Shown piece after piece: positions 22,056-41,725 of a stretch of DNA of 46,892 nucleotides. The first letter of the stretch is position 1; the number at the start of each line of letters is the position of its first letter. The DNA comes from a virus: IMG/VR virus record IMGVR_UViG_3300036781_000158, positions 1-46,892 of that record. One strand, given 5' to 3'. A model generated the notes under the pieces. The model worked only from the letters and a program-made list of their open reading frames with translations, was not told the origin of the DNA and searched no databases. Made by a program: the position numbers and the translations under genes.

Positions 22056-22423
22056 CAATTGAATCCTGGTGTCGTGTTGATTTCGAGAATTCTCGTTATG
22101 CCGTCATCCGTAAGGCGCACGACGAGATTATCCTGAATGCGGTTGCTCGGGACTTCCGCGCTGTACATTTCCGGCCGCGGGTTGAGAACGGGAACCGGAT
22201 CTGGAGGAAGAATAAGTGTGCGAAGTTGTATCTGCGGAACATCGAGACAAGTGCGCGTGCAAACTAAAAGCCGAAGGTTGACGAGACGATTGCCCTGCCA
22301 TTGGTTCTGCCATCTCAAATCGCGGAGATTGTAAGTCATCCCGCATCGATCGCACACTCCTAGAGCGCGAGGCGAAGTCGAGCTGACAAAGCCACGGCCG
22401 GTTGGATGTAGCGGACCACTCAT
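22055..22423 (-). CDS. Small zinc-finger-like structural protein
   Basis: 122 aa. Two metal-binding cysteines near the N-terminus (VCDRCGMTYNLRDLRWQ), and two more at VCTRTCLDVPQIQL, give a likely Cys4 zinc site. The rest, LILPPDPVPVLNPRPE, is a motif series I know from short phage proteins encoded beside the adaptor and tail genes. Start overlaps the HNH stop by ATGA. A structural role in head-tail joining is likely but unproven. Confidence 0.7.
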   Translation of the reverse strand: MSGPLHPTGRGFVSSTSPRALGVCDRCGMTYNLRDLRWQNQWQGNRLVNLRLLVCTRTCLDVPQIQLRTLILPPDPVPVLNPRPEMYSAEVPSNRIQDNLVVRLTDDGITRILEINTTPGFN

Positions 22424-22953
22424 CCCACTCTCGCAAACTCTTTCCCGAACACTTCAGCCGCTTTGCGTAAATACGCCTCAGACGCCTCATTAGGATCATC
22501 GAAAATCCCTACATAGAAAGTAATTCTCTTACCATTTATTGTCGCTCCTATCGCCGCCTCATAGCGACCGCTCTTCCTTAAACGTACACCCTTATATCCA
22601 GATTTATTGCGAGGAGGACAACGCATATTTGCGTTATTCTGCGTCTGGTTTACTTCGCGTAAGTTTAAAATTCGATTGTTTTTCCTGTTAGTATCCTTGT
22701 GATCGATATCCTGAGATGGCCAAACACCATTTTGATACAGCCACGCTAGTTGCTGCGCATAATATTGCTTGTCGTTTATTGTTATAACAATGTAGCCCTT
22801 ATTATTCACACATCCAGCGACTCCCTTAGCTCTCCTCCACCGACGCTCTTTCCATATAAATATTCCGGTATCTGGATCGTAATCCAGATGTTCACGAAGC
22901 GAAGCTGCATCAAGCATCTCTCGCTTCTCTGTATTGTTTCTTTTGTCACTCAT
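22420..22953 (-). CDS. Free-standing HNH homing endonuclease with AP2 domain
   Basis: 177 aa from ATG 22953 (an ATGA overlap with the adaptor gene stop); the frame can be extended into that gene but the overlap start is far more plausible. The N-terminus contains LDYDPDTGIFIWKER. The HNH_3-type centre has QQLAWLYQNGVWPSQDIDHKDTN (DHKDTNRKNN). The C-terminus GYKGVRLRKSGRYEAAI with FDDPNEASEAYLRKA is an AP2-type DNA-binding domain. It is inserted in an otherwise coupled pair of virion genes and would cleave homing-free alleles there. Codon use is more AT-rich than the neighbours. Confidence 0.9.
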   Translation of the reverse strand: MSDKRNNTEKREMLDAASLREHLDYDPDTGIFIWKERRWRRAKGVAGCVNNKGYIVITINDKQYYAQQLAWLYQNGVWPSQDIDHKDTNRKNNRILNLREVNQTQNNANMRCPPRNKSGYKGVRLRKSGRYEAAIGATINGKRITFYVGIFDDPNEASEAYLRKAAEVFGKEFARVG

Positions 22954-23627
22954 GAGTAGTAACTTTGCACTCCAGGGACTATGTATGTAGGAACATTCTC
23001 CGTGTCCTGAGTGGCCGCAATCTGCCACGCCCGCTGATAGTCAGTACCGCGCAACTGTTCTAATTGCGGCGCGTAGATGCGCGACAGACGATGCGAAAGC
23101 CCCGACACGAATGCGTCATACCAGCGGTATTGAATTTCTGGCTGTTGCGCTTGCGTGTAGTTTGCGTCCTGCGTTCGCCGGCAACGGTAATAACTTAGAA
23201 CGTCCGTGCTGTCATTCGGCACGGCCCATAGCGTGATCGTCGGGGCCACAAGCCGGTCGAACCAAAACACAGACGGCGTGTTCTGAATTGTCTTGTCGGG
23301 ATAGGACGCATATTCCGACCGTGAAATCGGGAAGATCAGCCGATCGGTAGCACCGGATGGTGTGATGTAGGCATCCAGGATCATGACCGTTGTAGGATCG
23401 ACTGCATAGGTTGCCGTGCCTGCGACCAACGCCGTTGTCACAAGGTCAACTTCCCACAAGTTGACTTGCAAATTTGCCCATTCAACCAGGAGGAGGTTGG
23501 TTTCCATCCGGGCATTGATGAGATGCTCCGCGAGTATTTCAGGACGGCGGATTTGAAGCCTCGCGAACGCGGATAGAACAACCTCGCCAACCGAAGGTGC
23601 AAAAGTGAAAGTCCCGGAGGTTGCCAT
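22950..23627 (-). CDS. Head-tail adaptor / gp4-like tail accessory protein
   Basis: 225 aa. The pattern VGEVVLSAFARLQIRRPEIL, METNLLLVEWANLQVNLWEV, TTVMILDAYI and YRWYDAFVSGLSHRLSRIYA matches proteins of podovirus genomes that I associate with P22 gp4-like tail accessory factors joining the portal to the tail. Its stop overlaps the HNH gene start. Start ATG 23627 is 11 bases after the previous stop. Confidence 0.7.
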   Translation of the reverse strand: MATSGTFTFAPSVGEVVLSAFARLQIRRPEILAEHLINARMETNLLLVEWANLQVNLWEVDLVTTALVAGTATYAVDPTTVMILDAYITPSGATDRLIFPISRSEYASYPDKTIQNTPSVFWFDRLVAPTITLWAVPNDSTDVLSYYRCRRTQDANYTQAQQPEIQYRWYDAFVSGLSHRLSRIYAPQLEQLRGTDYQRAWQIAATQDTENVPTYIVPGVQSYYS

Positions 23628-39097: not shown

Positions 39098-41725
39098 TCA
39101 ATCCGAAGTCCCATACAACGGTGCAAGCTTCGGCTTGAACAGCATCTCATCGTAAACCATCGCATCATGTTCGTGACTATGCGAGATCAAACCATTGTCT
39201 CTCAGATACTTGATCGCCTGCGTCGTCGAATCCGTCAAATCCCTAAACCGCCCCTTGGGAAACTCCCGACATTCCTCGATCACAAGGTCAGCCCATTCCT
39301 TGTCCGGCGCGTAAACCAACCCCTGCGCAAACGCAGGCTCTACCGCATGCGCCCGTGAAACCTTATCGCCCTCCGGTGTCACCAGCCGTATTCCCCAACC
39401 CTCATCGCCATGCAGCCGCCTTAGCTCCTGCGCCGCAGACATGCCGGACGCTTTCGATTCAACCAACAGCAAATCCACCTTGAACTTCTTGCACGAATAC
39501 GCAAGCCACTCGACCAATCCCCACTTCGAACTCGTCCGCTCGAAATAATCATGATCTTTCTCGTCAGGCTTGCGATCGATCCGCACGCCATGCAGCTCGA
39601 GAAACTTCCGCCACGCCCAAACCAACATGGCCTTGGGCCGGCCGTTGGTATCGCGGAACACACCCCAGATCGTGCAAGCCGATGGGTCGTTCTCCTCTTT
39701 CTCAGTGTACGCCGTGTCAGCCGAAGCCAGCAAAAACTCAAATGCAGGAAACTCCGGACTGGGCCAATCCTGCCAATACGTCTCCTTGATAATCCCGCCT
39801 TCCGCCAGCGTCGGCAATTGCTGCAACCGTCCCGAGGCCATGTACGGCCCGAGGCCGATCTTCAGAGCATGAACTTCCTTCGGCCCGAAACGCTCGGGCC
39901 ACATCAACTCATTCTCTTCGGTCCTGGGATCTTCCCAGACTTGTTCTGGTTCGCCCTCCTCATCCCACTTCAAAACTGTAACACAATGCCGCCGCGTGTC
40001 GTGCTCCATCGGGACCATGTAATGAACCCAGTCCTCATAGTCCGACGACTTCGTTATCTGCCCCGAGATATCCTCACCATGCAACCGCTGCATATTGACC
40101 ACGATCGCGCTTTGCTTCGGATCGTTCAAGCGCGTGGTCTTTATTTCATTCCACCAGTTCGTCGCCGTTAGCCGATCAGCTTCGGATTCAACTTCTTCCG
40201 TATTGTGTGGATCATCGCAATTGGCGCAAACTATACTTGACACGTTGTCGCCACAACACATATTACCATTGTCACGTACAGTTATGCAGTACGTCTCAGG
40301 AGGTAAATCATGCACCAACTCAATACCGACAACACGCAAGAAACTTGGCGAAATGTCGTCGGGTTCGAAAGGCTTTACGAAGTTTCCAGCTTCGGCCGCA
40401 TCAAGAGCATATCGAGGCCGCGAAACGATAAACTGTTTGTTCTCAAAGAACGAATTCTCTCTATCCTCATCAACAAAGGATATCCCCGCGTCACCATGAG
40501 ACGGAACGGAAAAACTCATTACCTGTTTTGCCATCAACTCGTGGCCCAAGCCTTTATAGGACAACCGCCACAAGGATGCGAAGTGCGCCACAAAGACGGA
40601 AACCGAACTAATCCTCGATTGGATAATCTCGAATACGGAACGCGATCGCAAAATATCGCCGATTGCAAAAAACACGGCAACTTTCGCAACGGAGCCTCTC
40701 ACCTTACAGAAGAAATTGTCTTGCAAATCGCGGCAAGACCGAACGATACCGCGGCAGTACTCGCTAAAGAATTCAACATTTCCCGAGGAACCATATCCGG
40801 CATTAGAAACGGCCGATGGTGGAAACACCTCAACATTCCCAAGCGAAGCTACATCAGACGCGGAGACGAACATCCCGCTAGACGCGGCAAGCAAATCGTC
40901 CCCAACTCGGAGTAATCCAGCCTCTACATACCCTCGCGATGTTAAAACACGATGATCAGCCGTACACTCTAGTCGCGTACCATCGCCAATCAATATCTTC
41001 AGCAAAGGACGTGGCGGGTTGGTATGCCAACCAATCACGTCCTTTAACTCAAATGCATCCAATGACCGATTATAGGACCACACTCGCGTCTCGCGACGTT
41101 GCTTTACAATATCGCCAATCTCAACAGGACCAGATTCCGTAACGATCGTTTGATGATATGGAAAGCAATTGATGATATCGCCACCAATCCCGAGCAGCGA
41201 ACCCCCAACCGACGACGCAATCCGCTGGCCGCCGGTAACCAAGTCAAAGTGCTCTTTTGTGTTCTGATCGTCGGCGATCCTGACTTCTTTCCCCCACCGT
41301 TCCTGATACCACGGGCTGAGAATAACCCGCCGCGTGGCATTAGAGTTTTCGAACGAAAGCTTCTGCCCGTACGATCCACACAGAAACCTGACCTGGTTTC
41401 CCGACCAGAACGACTTTTCTCGCCGCGTCCACGTCCACGCCGGCCAGCAAATCGAAGTAACAGTCGTCTTGCCCGTACGCGGCGGCATGTTGATGAGCAA
41501 ACGCTTGATCTGCCCTTCCGTTACCGCTTGCAAGTGCTCGCATAACCCATCGATTACCCATGACGGCTGATATCGCGCCGGATTGATGTAAGGCCAAGCG
41601 CCCTCGACAAAATCAATTAAGTTTGTCTCTAGCCTTTCCGTCTCCCGTAGAAACCGCATCCTTTGCGTCGCCAAGGCCAAGGACTTGAGTCTCGGATCGG
41701 ATGTAGTCTGCAAGCTCATCGGCAT
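39098..41725 (-). CDS. terL: Terminase large subunit containing an intein
   Basis: 875 aa precursor, predicted 559 aa after splicing. Walker A NMPPRTGKTT lies at residues 79-88. The intein (187-502) is inserted in Walker B, between GIGGDIIN and CDDPHN. The C-terminal nuclease domain has ASADTAY (Asp670), LLVESKASG (Glu756) and RDLTDSTTQ (Asp829, Asp832), giving the expected metal-binding acidic residues. The protein translocates DNA into the prohead and cuts the concatemer. The N-terminus is uncertain: ATG 41725 overlaps terS by 113 bases with no clear ribosome binding site, and starts further in are possible because conservation begins near residue 31. Splicing must occur for a working ATPase. 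Confidence 0.85.
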   Translation of the reverse strand: MPMSLQTTSDPRLKSLALATQRMRFLRETERLETNLIDFVEGAWPYINPARYQPSWVIDGLCEHLQAVTEGQIKRLLINMPPRTGKTTVTSICWPAWTWTRREKSFWSGNQVRFLCGSYGQKLSFENSNATRRVILSPWYQERWGKEVRIADDQNTKEHFDLVTGGQRIASSVGGSLLGIGGDIINCFPYHQTIVTESGPVEIGDIVKQRRETRVWSYNRSLDAFELKDVIGWHTNPPRPLLKILIGDGTRLECTADHRVLTSRGYVEAGLLRVGDDLLAASSGMFVSASDVASLGNVEVFPPSAVSNAGYGSSGNVEFFSEYCRGIVRSCRDLQDNFFCKVRGSVAKVAVFFAIGDILRSRSVFEIIQSRISSVSVFVAHFASLWRLSYKGLGHELMAKQVMSFSVPSHGDAGISFVDEDRENSFFENKQFIVSRPRYALDAAEAGNFVKPFEPDDISPSFLRVVGIELVHDLPPETYCITVRDNGNMCCGDNVSSIVCANCDDPHNTEEVESEADRLTATNWWNEIKTTRLNDPKQSAIVVNMQRLHGEDISGQITKSSDYEDWVHYMVPMEHDTRRHCVTVLKWDEEGEPEQVWEDPRTEENELMWPERFGPKEVHALKIGLGPYMASGRLQQLPTLAEGGIIKETYWQDWPSPEFPAFEFLLASADTAYTEKEENDPSACTIWGVFRDTNGRPKAMLVWAWRKFLELHGVRIDRKPDEKDHDYFERTSSKWGLVEWLAYSCKKFKVDLLLVESKASGMSAAQELRRLHGDEGWGIRLVTPEGDKVSRAHAVEPAFAQGLVYAPDKEWADLVIEECREFPKGRFRDLTDSTTQAIKYLRDNGLISHSHEHDAMVYDEMLFKPKLAPLYGTSD
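40237..40303 (+). promoter_or_regulatory. Candidate promoter and ribosome binding site of the antisense HNH gene
   Basis: On the plus strand, a perfect -35 TTGACA (40237-40242) is followed after 18 bases by TATTAC (40261-40266; 4 of 6 to consensus). A perfect Shine-Dalgarno AGGAGG (40298-40303) lies six bases before ATG 40310. All of this is inside the minus-strand codons for the intein C-terminal splicing blocks; the AGGAGG is antisense to the Pro-Pro codons of DLPPETYC. This indicates that the endonuclease is transcribed and translated independently of terL. Confidence 0.65.
40310..40915 (+). CDS. HNH homing endonuclease nested antisense inside the TerL intein
   Basis: 201 aa. An N-terminal NUMOD4-like DNA-binding motif (WRNVVGFERLYEVSSFGRI, residues 13-31) is followed by an HNH core: LFCHQLVAQAF (His75) and EVRHKDGNRTNPRLDNLEYG (His94, Asn98, Asn106). 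A C-terminal helix-turn-helix (DTAAVLAKEFNISRG, residues 146-160) follows. It would cut intein-less terL alleles and cause homing. Codon boundaries coincide with those of the intein frame on the other strand, so every TTA, CTA or TCA codon would stop TerL. All 14 Leu codons (CTC, CTT, CTG, TTG) and 11 Ser codons (TCC, TCT, TCG, AGC) avoid them, whereas these triplets occur freely out of frame. Confidence 0.9.
   Translation: MHQLNTDNTQETWRNVVGFERLYEVSSFGRIKSISRPRNDKLFVLKERILSILINKGYPRVTMRRNGKTHYLFCHQLVAQAFIGQPPQGCEVRHKDGNRTNPRLDNLEYGTRSQNIADCKKHGNFRNGASHLTEEIVLQIAARPNDTAAVLAKEFNISRGTISGIRNGRWWKHLNIPKRSYIRRGDEHPARRGKQIVPNSE

Follow-up and report, generated by a model that had tools for sequence, protein, structure and literature searches.

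How a viral terminase gene can encode an intein on one strand and an intact endonuclease on the other, and how far the two readings reach into each other, is the question raised by this locus. The window (the whole stretch of DNA analysed, a virus record of 46,892 bases) carries the gene for the terminase large subunit (TerL) on its minus strand, interrupted by an intein, and within that intein an HNH homing-type endonuclease gene lies on the plus strand. A first-pass annotation had proposed that the dual coding enters the splicing domain at both ends of the HNH gene and thereby limits how either protein can evolve. The features concerned are as follows.

39098-41725, minus strand: TerL open reading frame, an intein-containing precursor of 875 aa (PHROG 38, E 4e-69; Terminase_6C)
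40220-41167, minus strand: intein of 316 aa, TerL C187 to N502 (Pfam Intein_splicing, E 1.8e-6; 19-member family)
40940-40981, minus strand: block B proper, intein residues 63-76, with C68, T69 and H72 invariant in the family alignment
40886-40915, minus strand: LLRVGDDLLA, the strand that follows block B (intein residues 85-94); its DNA also encodes the HNH C-terminus
40313-40885, minus strand: intein linker as read in sense, complementary to the HNH gene, with no sign of protein-level selection (family dN/dS below)
40220-40312, minus strand: C-terminal splicing block, intein residues 286-316, with T292, C294 and N316 invariant in the family alignment
40237-40264, plus strand: candidate HNH promoter TTGACA-N16-CATATT, predicted, inside the C-terminal splicing block
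40298-40303, plus strand: HNH Shine-Dalgarno AGGAGG, antisense to the TerL Pro475-Pro476 codons
40310-40915, plus strand: HNH homing-type endonuclease gene, 201 aa, antisense in codon register to intein residues 85-286 (NUMOD4, HNH_3)
40340-40498, plus strand: NUMOD4 DNA-binding motif of the HNH, aa 11-63 (E 8e-13)
40529-40654, plus strand: HNH_3 nuclease domain, aa 74-115 (E 2.8e-13)
40712-40795, plus strand: weak helix-turn-helix-like segment of the HNH C-terminal part, aa 135-162 (HTH_11, E 0.013, below the curated cut-off)
40880-40891, plus strand: HNH RRGK, aa 191-194, the end of the tail conserved in the window's clade (HPARRGK)
40892-40915, plus strand: last HNH codons QIVPNSE plus stop TAA, facing LLRVGDDL, with poor conservation of the HNH protein

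The insertion point in the window is ...GGDIIN/C-DDPHN (a slash marks the junction here and below), beside the TerL Walker B motif, and the insert has C1, CTxxH, TYC, N316 and Cys at +1. Its Intein_splicing score (28.3 bits) lies below the Pfam curated cut-off of 35.8. Across the family, which was recovered via patterns for the intein/TerL junction and the C-terminal splicing block, the same profile matches 19 of 19 inteins at E values up to 0.1. The family's own intein profile matches solved inteins at E 1e-15, and C1, C68-T69, H72 and N316 are invariant across the 19 members, with Cys at +1 in each. The HNH protein scores above the curated cut-offs for both of its domains (NUMOD4, 48.8 versus 23.4 bits; HNH_3, 49.7 versus 24.8 bits), both domains match 15 of 15 family HNHs, and the HNH profile matches the I-HmuI structure (PDB 1u3e) at E 3.1e-20. 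Elsewhere in the window, a second HNH-type gene (22420-23028, minus strand; HNH_3 E 9e-14, AP2 E 1.9e-6) is not nested in another gene, and a DUF6745 protein is encoded at 172-1290 on the plus strand (E 7.6e-45).

The plus-strand frame might be suspected of being a chance antisense ORF, open by accident, since GC-rich genes often have open antisense frames in register, and TerL holds other long antisense ORFs. The HNH and TerL frames of the window are indeed in exact codon register, position 1 of one lying opposite position 3 of the other. Given the window's own codon usage, the probability that the HNH would lack sense-strand stops is 0.017. The same arrangement recurs in about 13 independent TerL-intein lineages with an intact antisense HNH, with identical register in all (phase 0), among them the isolated Escherichia phage BUCT618, in which the antisense HNH is unannotated; over 13 loci the joint log10 P under local codon usage is -30, uncorrected for relatedness. 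Of 12 free-standing homologues, 11 have 3-17 codons whose complement would read as a stop in the opposing frame, and the exception has 75% G+C. The antisense HNHs also cluster apart from the 12 free-standing phage HNHs (a single change, a value as low being reached in 0 of 500 shuffles), with modest support for a single group (62/84; 66% of bootstraps; only 12 free-standing rows). This clustering fits a single origin of the arrangement without proving it.

The pattern of substitution differed by region. In the N-extein and both splicing blocks, differences between relatives peak at sense position 3; where the HNH gene overlaps, the peak moves to sense position 1, which is the HNH wobble position. 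Between loci L101 and L103, for example, differences at sense positions 1/2/3 number 4/2/37 in the N-extein versus 48/9/15 in the HNH core, and pooling seven pairs gives 774/290/392 for the HNH core versus 219/170/410 for the splicing blocks (Fisher p 7e-38 for the difference in position bias, sites treated as independent). By the Nei-Gojobori method, dN/dS is 0.11-0.31 in the HNH frame and 1.3-1.6 in the sense linker (five pairs each), compared with 0.08-0.22 in the extein. Where the HNH is broken (L105 versus L103) the bias vanishes (1/4/4 at positions 1/2/3) and HNH dN/dS is 2.2, on few changes. The switch of strand in the substitutions, together with the dN/dS values, therefore marks the endonuclease as the product on which selection acts in the linker region; the sense linker is a passenger that has to stay open. 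A single ORF with two curated domains, orthologous genes across 13 lineages and purifying selection on the HNH frame all speak against a chance ORF; this explanation is refuted by the selection test, and we consider it vanishingly improbable.

Antisense-HNH inteins occupy two neighbouring TerL Walker-B sites, one GFGG/CIIIDDP-like and the other directly before a DDPHN-like motif, and an HNH-less relative (L107) is found at a third TerL site, SITG/CDAG. The same two positions also hold many ordinary inteins ending in VHN/C that have no HNH on the opposite strand (viral contig loci L021-L100). Intein presence is patchy among close relatives. For BUCT618, mobility is seen by comparison. Intein-free alleles in IMG/VR have best TerL segments 98% and 96% identical to that of BUCT618, and the former (locus L010, 92% in DNA) reads GFGG-AIIIDDP versus GFGG/intein/CIIIDDP in BUCT618, so that the intein-free allele has alanine where BUCT618 has the intein and then Cys. 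For the window TerL, only distant intein-free homologues were found. A search of IMG/VR for close relatives returned nothing with the HNH alone as query and one unrelated locus with the intein alone. The BUCT618 TerL had no near match in E. coli genomes, its plasmid relatives being all intein-free, and a block-F pattern search of bacterial and archaeal genomes yielded no further antisense-HNH inteins.

Successive stages of decay are also represented. L105 (3679-4722) has the intein of L103, but one stop (at intein residue 236) interrupts its antisense HNH, while the sense frame stays open; the decayed L106 retains only the C-terminal part of the HNH, and L098 retains an HNH remnant. The mini-inteins L050, L080 and L107 have 142, 135 and 154 residues, respectively, within a family range for such forms of 135-166 aa. 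These relatives bear on two further explanations. The HNH could be kept for another phage function, such as a packaging-associated HNH or phage competition, rather than for homing; some phages have HNH proteins that can assist the terminase (PMC11855218), and this intein is located in TerL. Relatives with a missing or broken HNH nevertheless persist (L050, L080, L098, L105, L107), presence is patchy as described, and the combination of NUMOD4 and HNH_3 is of the I-HmuI homing type, so we regard a non-homing role as unlikely. The insert could alternatively be a non-splicing one of the ShiLan-domain type, in which an out-of-frame HNH resides in a tolerated read-through loop, and the idea of an HNH hidden in an open insert is shared with that system (PMC11855218). 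Here, however, both Hint halves, C1, CTxxH, T-(F/Y)-C and the N/C junction are conserved under purifying selection at position 3, the mini forms reduce to Hint alone, and the insert interrupts the TerL Walker B motif, all of which makes a non-splicing insertion very unlikely.

The locus is thus, very probably, a mobile TerL intein whose homing endonuclease is a separate, opposite-strand NUMOD4-HNH gene placed between the halves of the splicing domain. The anatomy, the family, the strand-switched selection, the intein-free alleles and the decay series are observed; because the two components belong to known types (class 1 inteins and I-HmuI-type HNHs), we infer splicing, expression, cutting and homing as follows. 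On the sense strand, the whole 316-codon insert would be translated within TerL, and the two Hint halves would fold and splice it out; the sense linker of about 190 residues would merely be the complement of the endonuclease gene and would have to avoid stops. The other strand would supply the endonuclease, its transcript perhaps starting at a promoter inside the C-terminal splicing block and its translation running from an ATG that faces a conserved His to a stop that faces the strand after block B. The endonuclease would then presumably cut intein-free TerL alleles at the Walker-B site, into which the intein would be copied by repair.

The start of the HNH gene lies within the C-terminal splicing block. 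As the first-pass annotation had noted, the ATG (40310-40312) is antisense to His472 (CAT), and this holds beyond the window: a CAT His lies opposite the ATG in 13 of 13 independent intact loci, just before the T-(F/Y)-C motif and, across all intact members, 25-30 residues before the intein end. The Shine-Dalgarno had likewise been placed opposite the two prolines of DLPPETYC, which is correct for the window; this placement is particular to it, since in other loci the ribosome-binding site usually lies opposite the T-(F/Y)-C codons, with the window (AGGAGG opposite Pro-Pro) and L090 (GGAGG) as variants. Further upstream, 9 of the 11 independent HNH-bearing inteins that contain NHN encode it as AAT-CAT-AAY, so that the opposite strand reads TATGAT; 2 of 18 other TerL inteins do so (p 2.5e-4, without correction for relatedness), although in the exteins there CAT makes up about half and AAT 39% of the usage. 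The TATGAT box lies about 34-40 nt before the HNH ATG (e.g., L101, L087 and L109), and no overall enrichment was seen for a -35 box anchored to it (2.69 versus 2.54). The window intein is without NHN and would instead use TTGACA-N16-CATATT, which matches the consensus at 10 of 12 positions and is the best candidate in the 130 nt upstream, with 2% of shuffles as good and 1 found versus 1.3 expected in the region.

A promoter embedded in the splicing block is plausible. Extending this to a fully embedded gene, with -10 box, ribosome-binding site, start and stop all in the complement of splicing-domain codons, is tentative, and we are somewhat more inclined to doubt it than to accept it. If it holds, selection for endonuclease expression would act on which codons the splicing blocks use. 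The two genes would thereby be bound to each other, and HNH loss would occur mainly by internal deletion or nonsense.

At the other end of the gene, HNH residues 193-201 and the stop (GKQIVPNSE and TAA, 40886-40915, plus strand) lie exactly opposite TerL residues 280-271, so the reported reading of these codons as LLRVGDDLLA on the other strand is exact to the base, and the stop TAA (40913-40915) is, as reported, the complement of TTA, the codon for Leu271. Dual coding thus enters the splicing domain at both ends, and it does so family-wide, with ATGs opposite the CAT His and stops within the splicing half. The overlapped segment had been named the end of block B. A strand of the splicing domain is indeed overlapped, but it is the one (consensus L..(G)D.L) that follows block B proper (TADHRVLT, centred on H72), which the HNH gene of the window stops short of and does not overlap. 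The HNH stop is opposite intein residue 85 or 86 in nine loci including the window, opposite residue 87 in the decayed L106, and further in, opposite residues 53-82, in the remaining loci.

The description of LLRVGDDLLA as a conserved motif was not supported in full: LLRVGDD is not strictly conserved, and invariant positions in the family end at A83. The GD pair is found in only 4 of 15 antisense-HNH inteins versus 26 of 39 other inteins, mostly of TerL (p 0.014, relatedness ignored); the motif is therefore less conserved in antisense-HNH inteins than elsewhere, and the BUCT618 clade has HLANALNL in its place. The segment itself is retained: five of five HNH-reduced mini-inteins keep the stretch opposite the HNH tail while losing the HNH sequence beyond.

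On the endonuclease side, conservation of the C-terminus varied by clade. With the conserved Leu as anchor of the alignment, the strand bias flips at the eight L..GD.L codons. In the window's clade (the window, L087 and L090), ARRGK and HPARRGK are invariant and the five-codon bin at RRGK has 8 differences at position 1 versus 2 at position 3, whereas the last seven HNH codons are poorly conserved; the codons facing LRVGDDLL have 14 differences at position 1 and 15 at position 3, with identities of 0.42 (sense) and 0.33 (antisense). Over the same eight codons the BUCT618 clade keeps the HNH protein (antisense identity 0.73), and both proteins are kept in L109/L076 (0.88/0.88) and L101/L103 (0.88/1.0).

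These clades bear differently on whether the overlap is passive, that is, whether the HNH functionally ends at HPARRGK and translation simply runs on to the first TTA, CTA or TCA, with selection there on the splicing strand only. The window's clade fits such a reading, having no HNH bias and its lowest HNH identity over the last eight codons, as do the varying length and domain content of HNH tails across the family (stops opposite residues 53 to 86) and the L081/L095/L100 clade, in which the part of the tail past residue 86 varies as splicing sequence does (position 3-dominated). Against it stand the HNH protein kept in the BUCT618 clade, L109/L076 and L101/L103 (antisense identity 0.73-1.0, with a tilt to position 1) and the clustering of stops at residue 85/86 in nine loci. 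We consider a passive overlap quite possible and lean only slightly against it.

The proposal that the overlap limits both proteins fared unevenly. In its favour, the splicing strand is kept in all mini-inteins, and a natural exchange affected both genes: between L081/L099 and L095, the flanks and the remainder of the splicing blocks share 98-100% identity, and a block of about 250 nt over the HNH C-terminus (intein nt about 235-470) has been replaced by recombination, altering the splicing strand after block B from VEARLLKAGDVVP to IPADILGPTSGRVII, so both proteins change together in this comparison. Not in its favour are the missing strand bias in the last HNH codons of the window's clade and the substitution counts, which show no clear dip over the eight overlap codons in the seven pairs (47 differences versus 56 expected), so that a general double constraint on the overlap is not shown. 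The overlap at 40886-40915 is real dual coding, needed more consistently by the splicing side than by the endonuclease side.

Among known systems, canonical mobile inteins resemble the family in having a bipartite Hint domain that is interrupted at the same place between blocks B and F, in being inserted into a conserved active-site motif, in their patchy distribution and in having mini-intein derivatives. It is not itself a canonical endonuclease-containing intein: the sense linker matches no endonuclease family and the HNH is on the opposite strand. Canonical elements carry the endonuclease as an in-frame domain, whereas here it is a separate gene product outside the intein polypeptide. In fractured genes, split inteins have a free-standing endonuclease between their halves. 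There too the endonuclease is its own gene between intein halves, but host gene and intein are physically split, whereas the intein here stays one polypeptide because the HNH complement is open.

Homing inteins have so far been described with an in-frame fused endonuclease or, recently, with a same-strand, out-of-frame HNH. The terminase intein of Gordonia phage Clown (L005, 2385-3524, plus strand) contains an HNH-like frame that overlaps the insert as here, but on the same strand and out of frame. Hidden out-of-frame HNH insertions of the ShiLan type, known from phage methylases (Genes 2025, PMC11855218), similarly overlap an open insert read in another frame; their HNH is on the same strand and they are without a detectable splicing domain, whereas the present gene is antisense, in codon register and inside a splicing domain, and the family does not belong to that type. 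Group I introns with antisense homing endonuclease genes are known from myxomycete rDNA (I-DsqI, PMC9548176), where the endonuclease gene in a self-splicing element is expressed from the other strand; those are RNA introns in a non-coding rRNA gene, so without dual protein coding. The HNH profile has its best solved relative in I-HmuI of the phage SPO1 intron, whose gene runs in sense orientation inside a group I intron, unlike the antisense HNH of the window. We found no report in the open-access literature of an antisense endonuclease inside an intein, such reports being for group I introns only. Standard annotation misses the antisense HNH, as in BUCT618, and searching the complement of intein linkers offers a rule for finding more cases. 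The family is widespread and provides a naturally replicated example of antisense dual coding over a long stretch, in which selection can be read for each strand, with natural knock-outs and deletions, and its opposite-strand endonuclease would constitute a third way of combining splicing with mobility.
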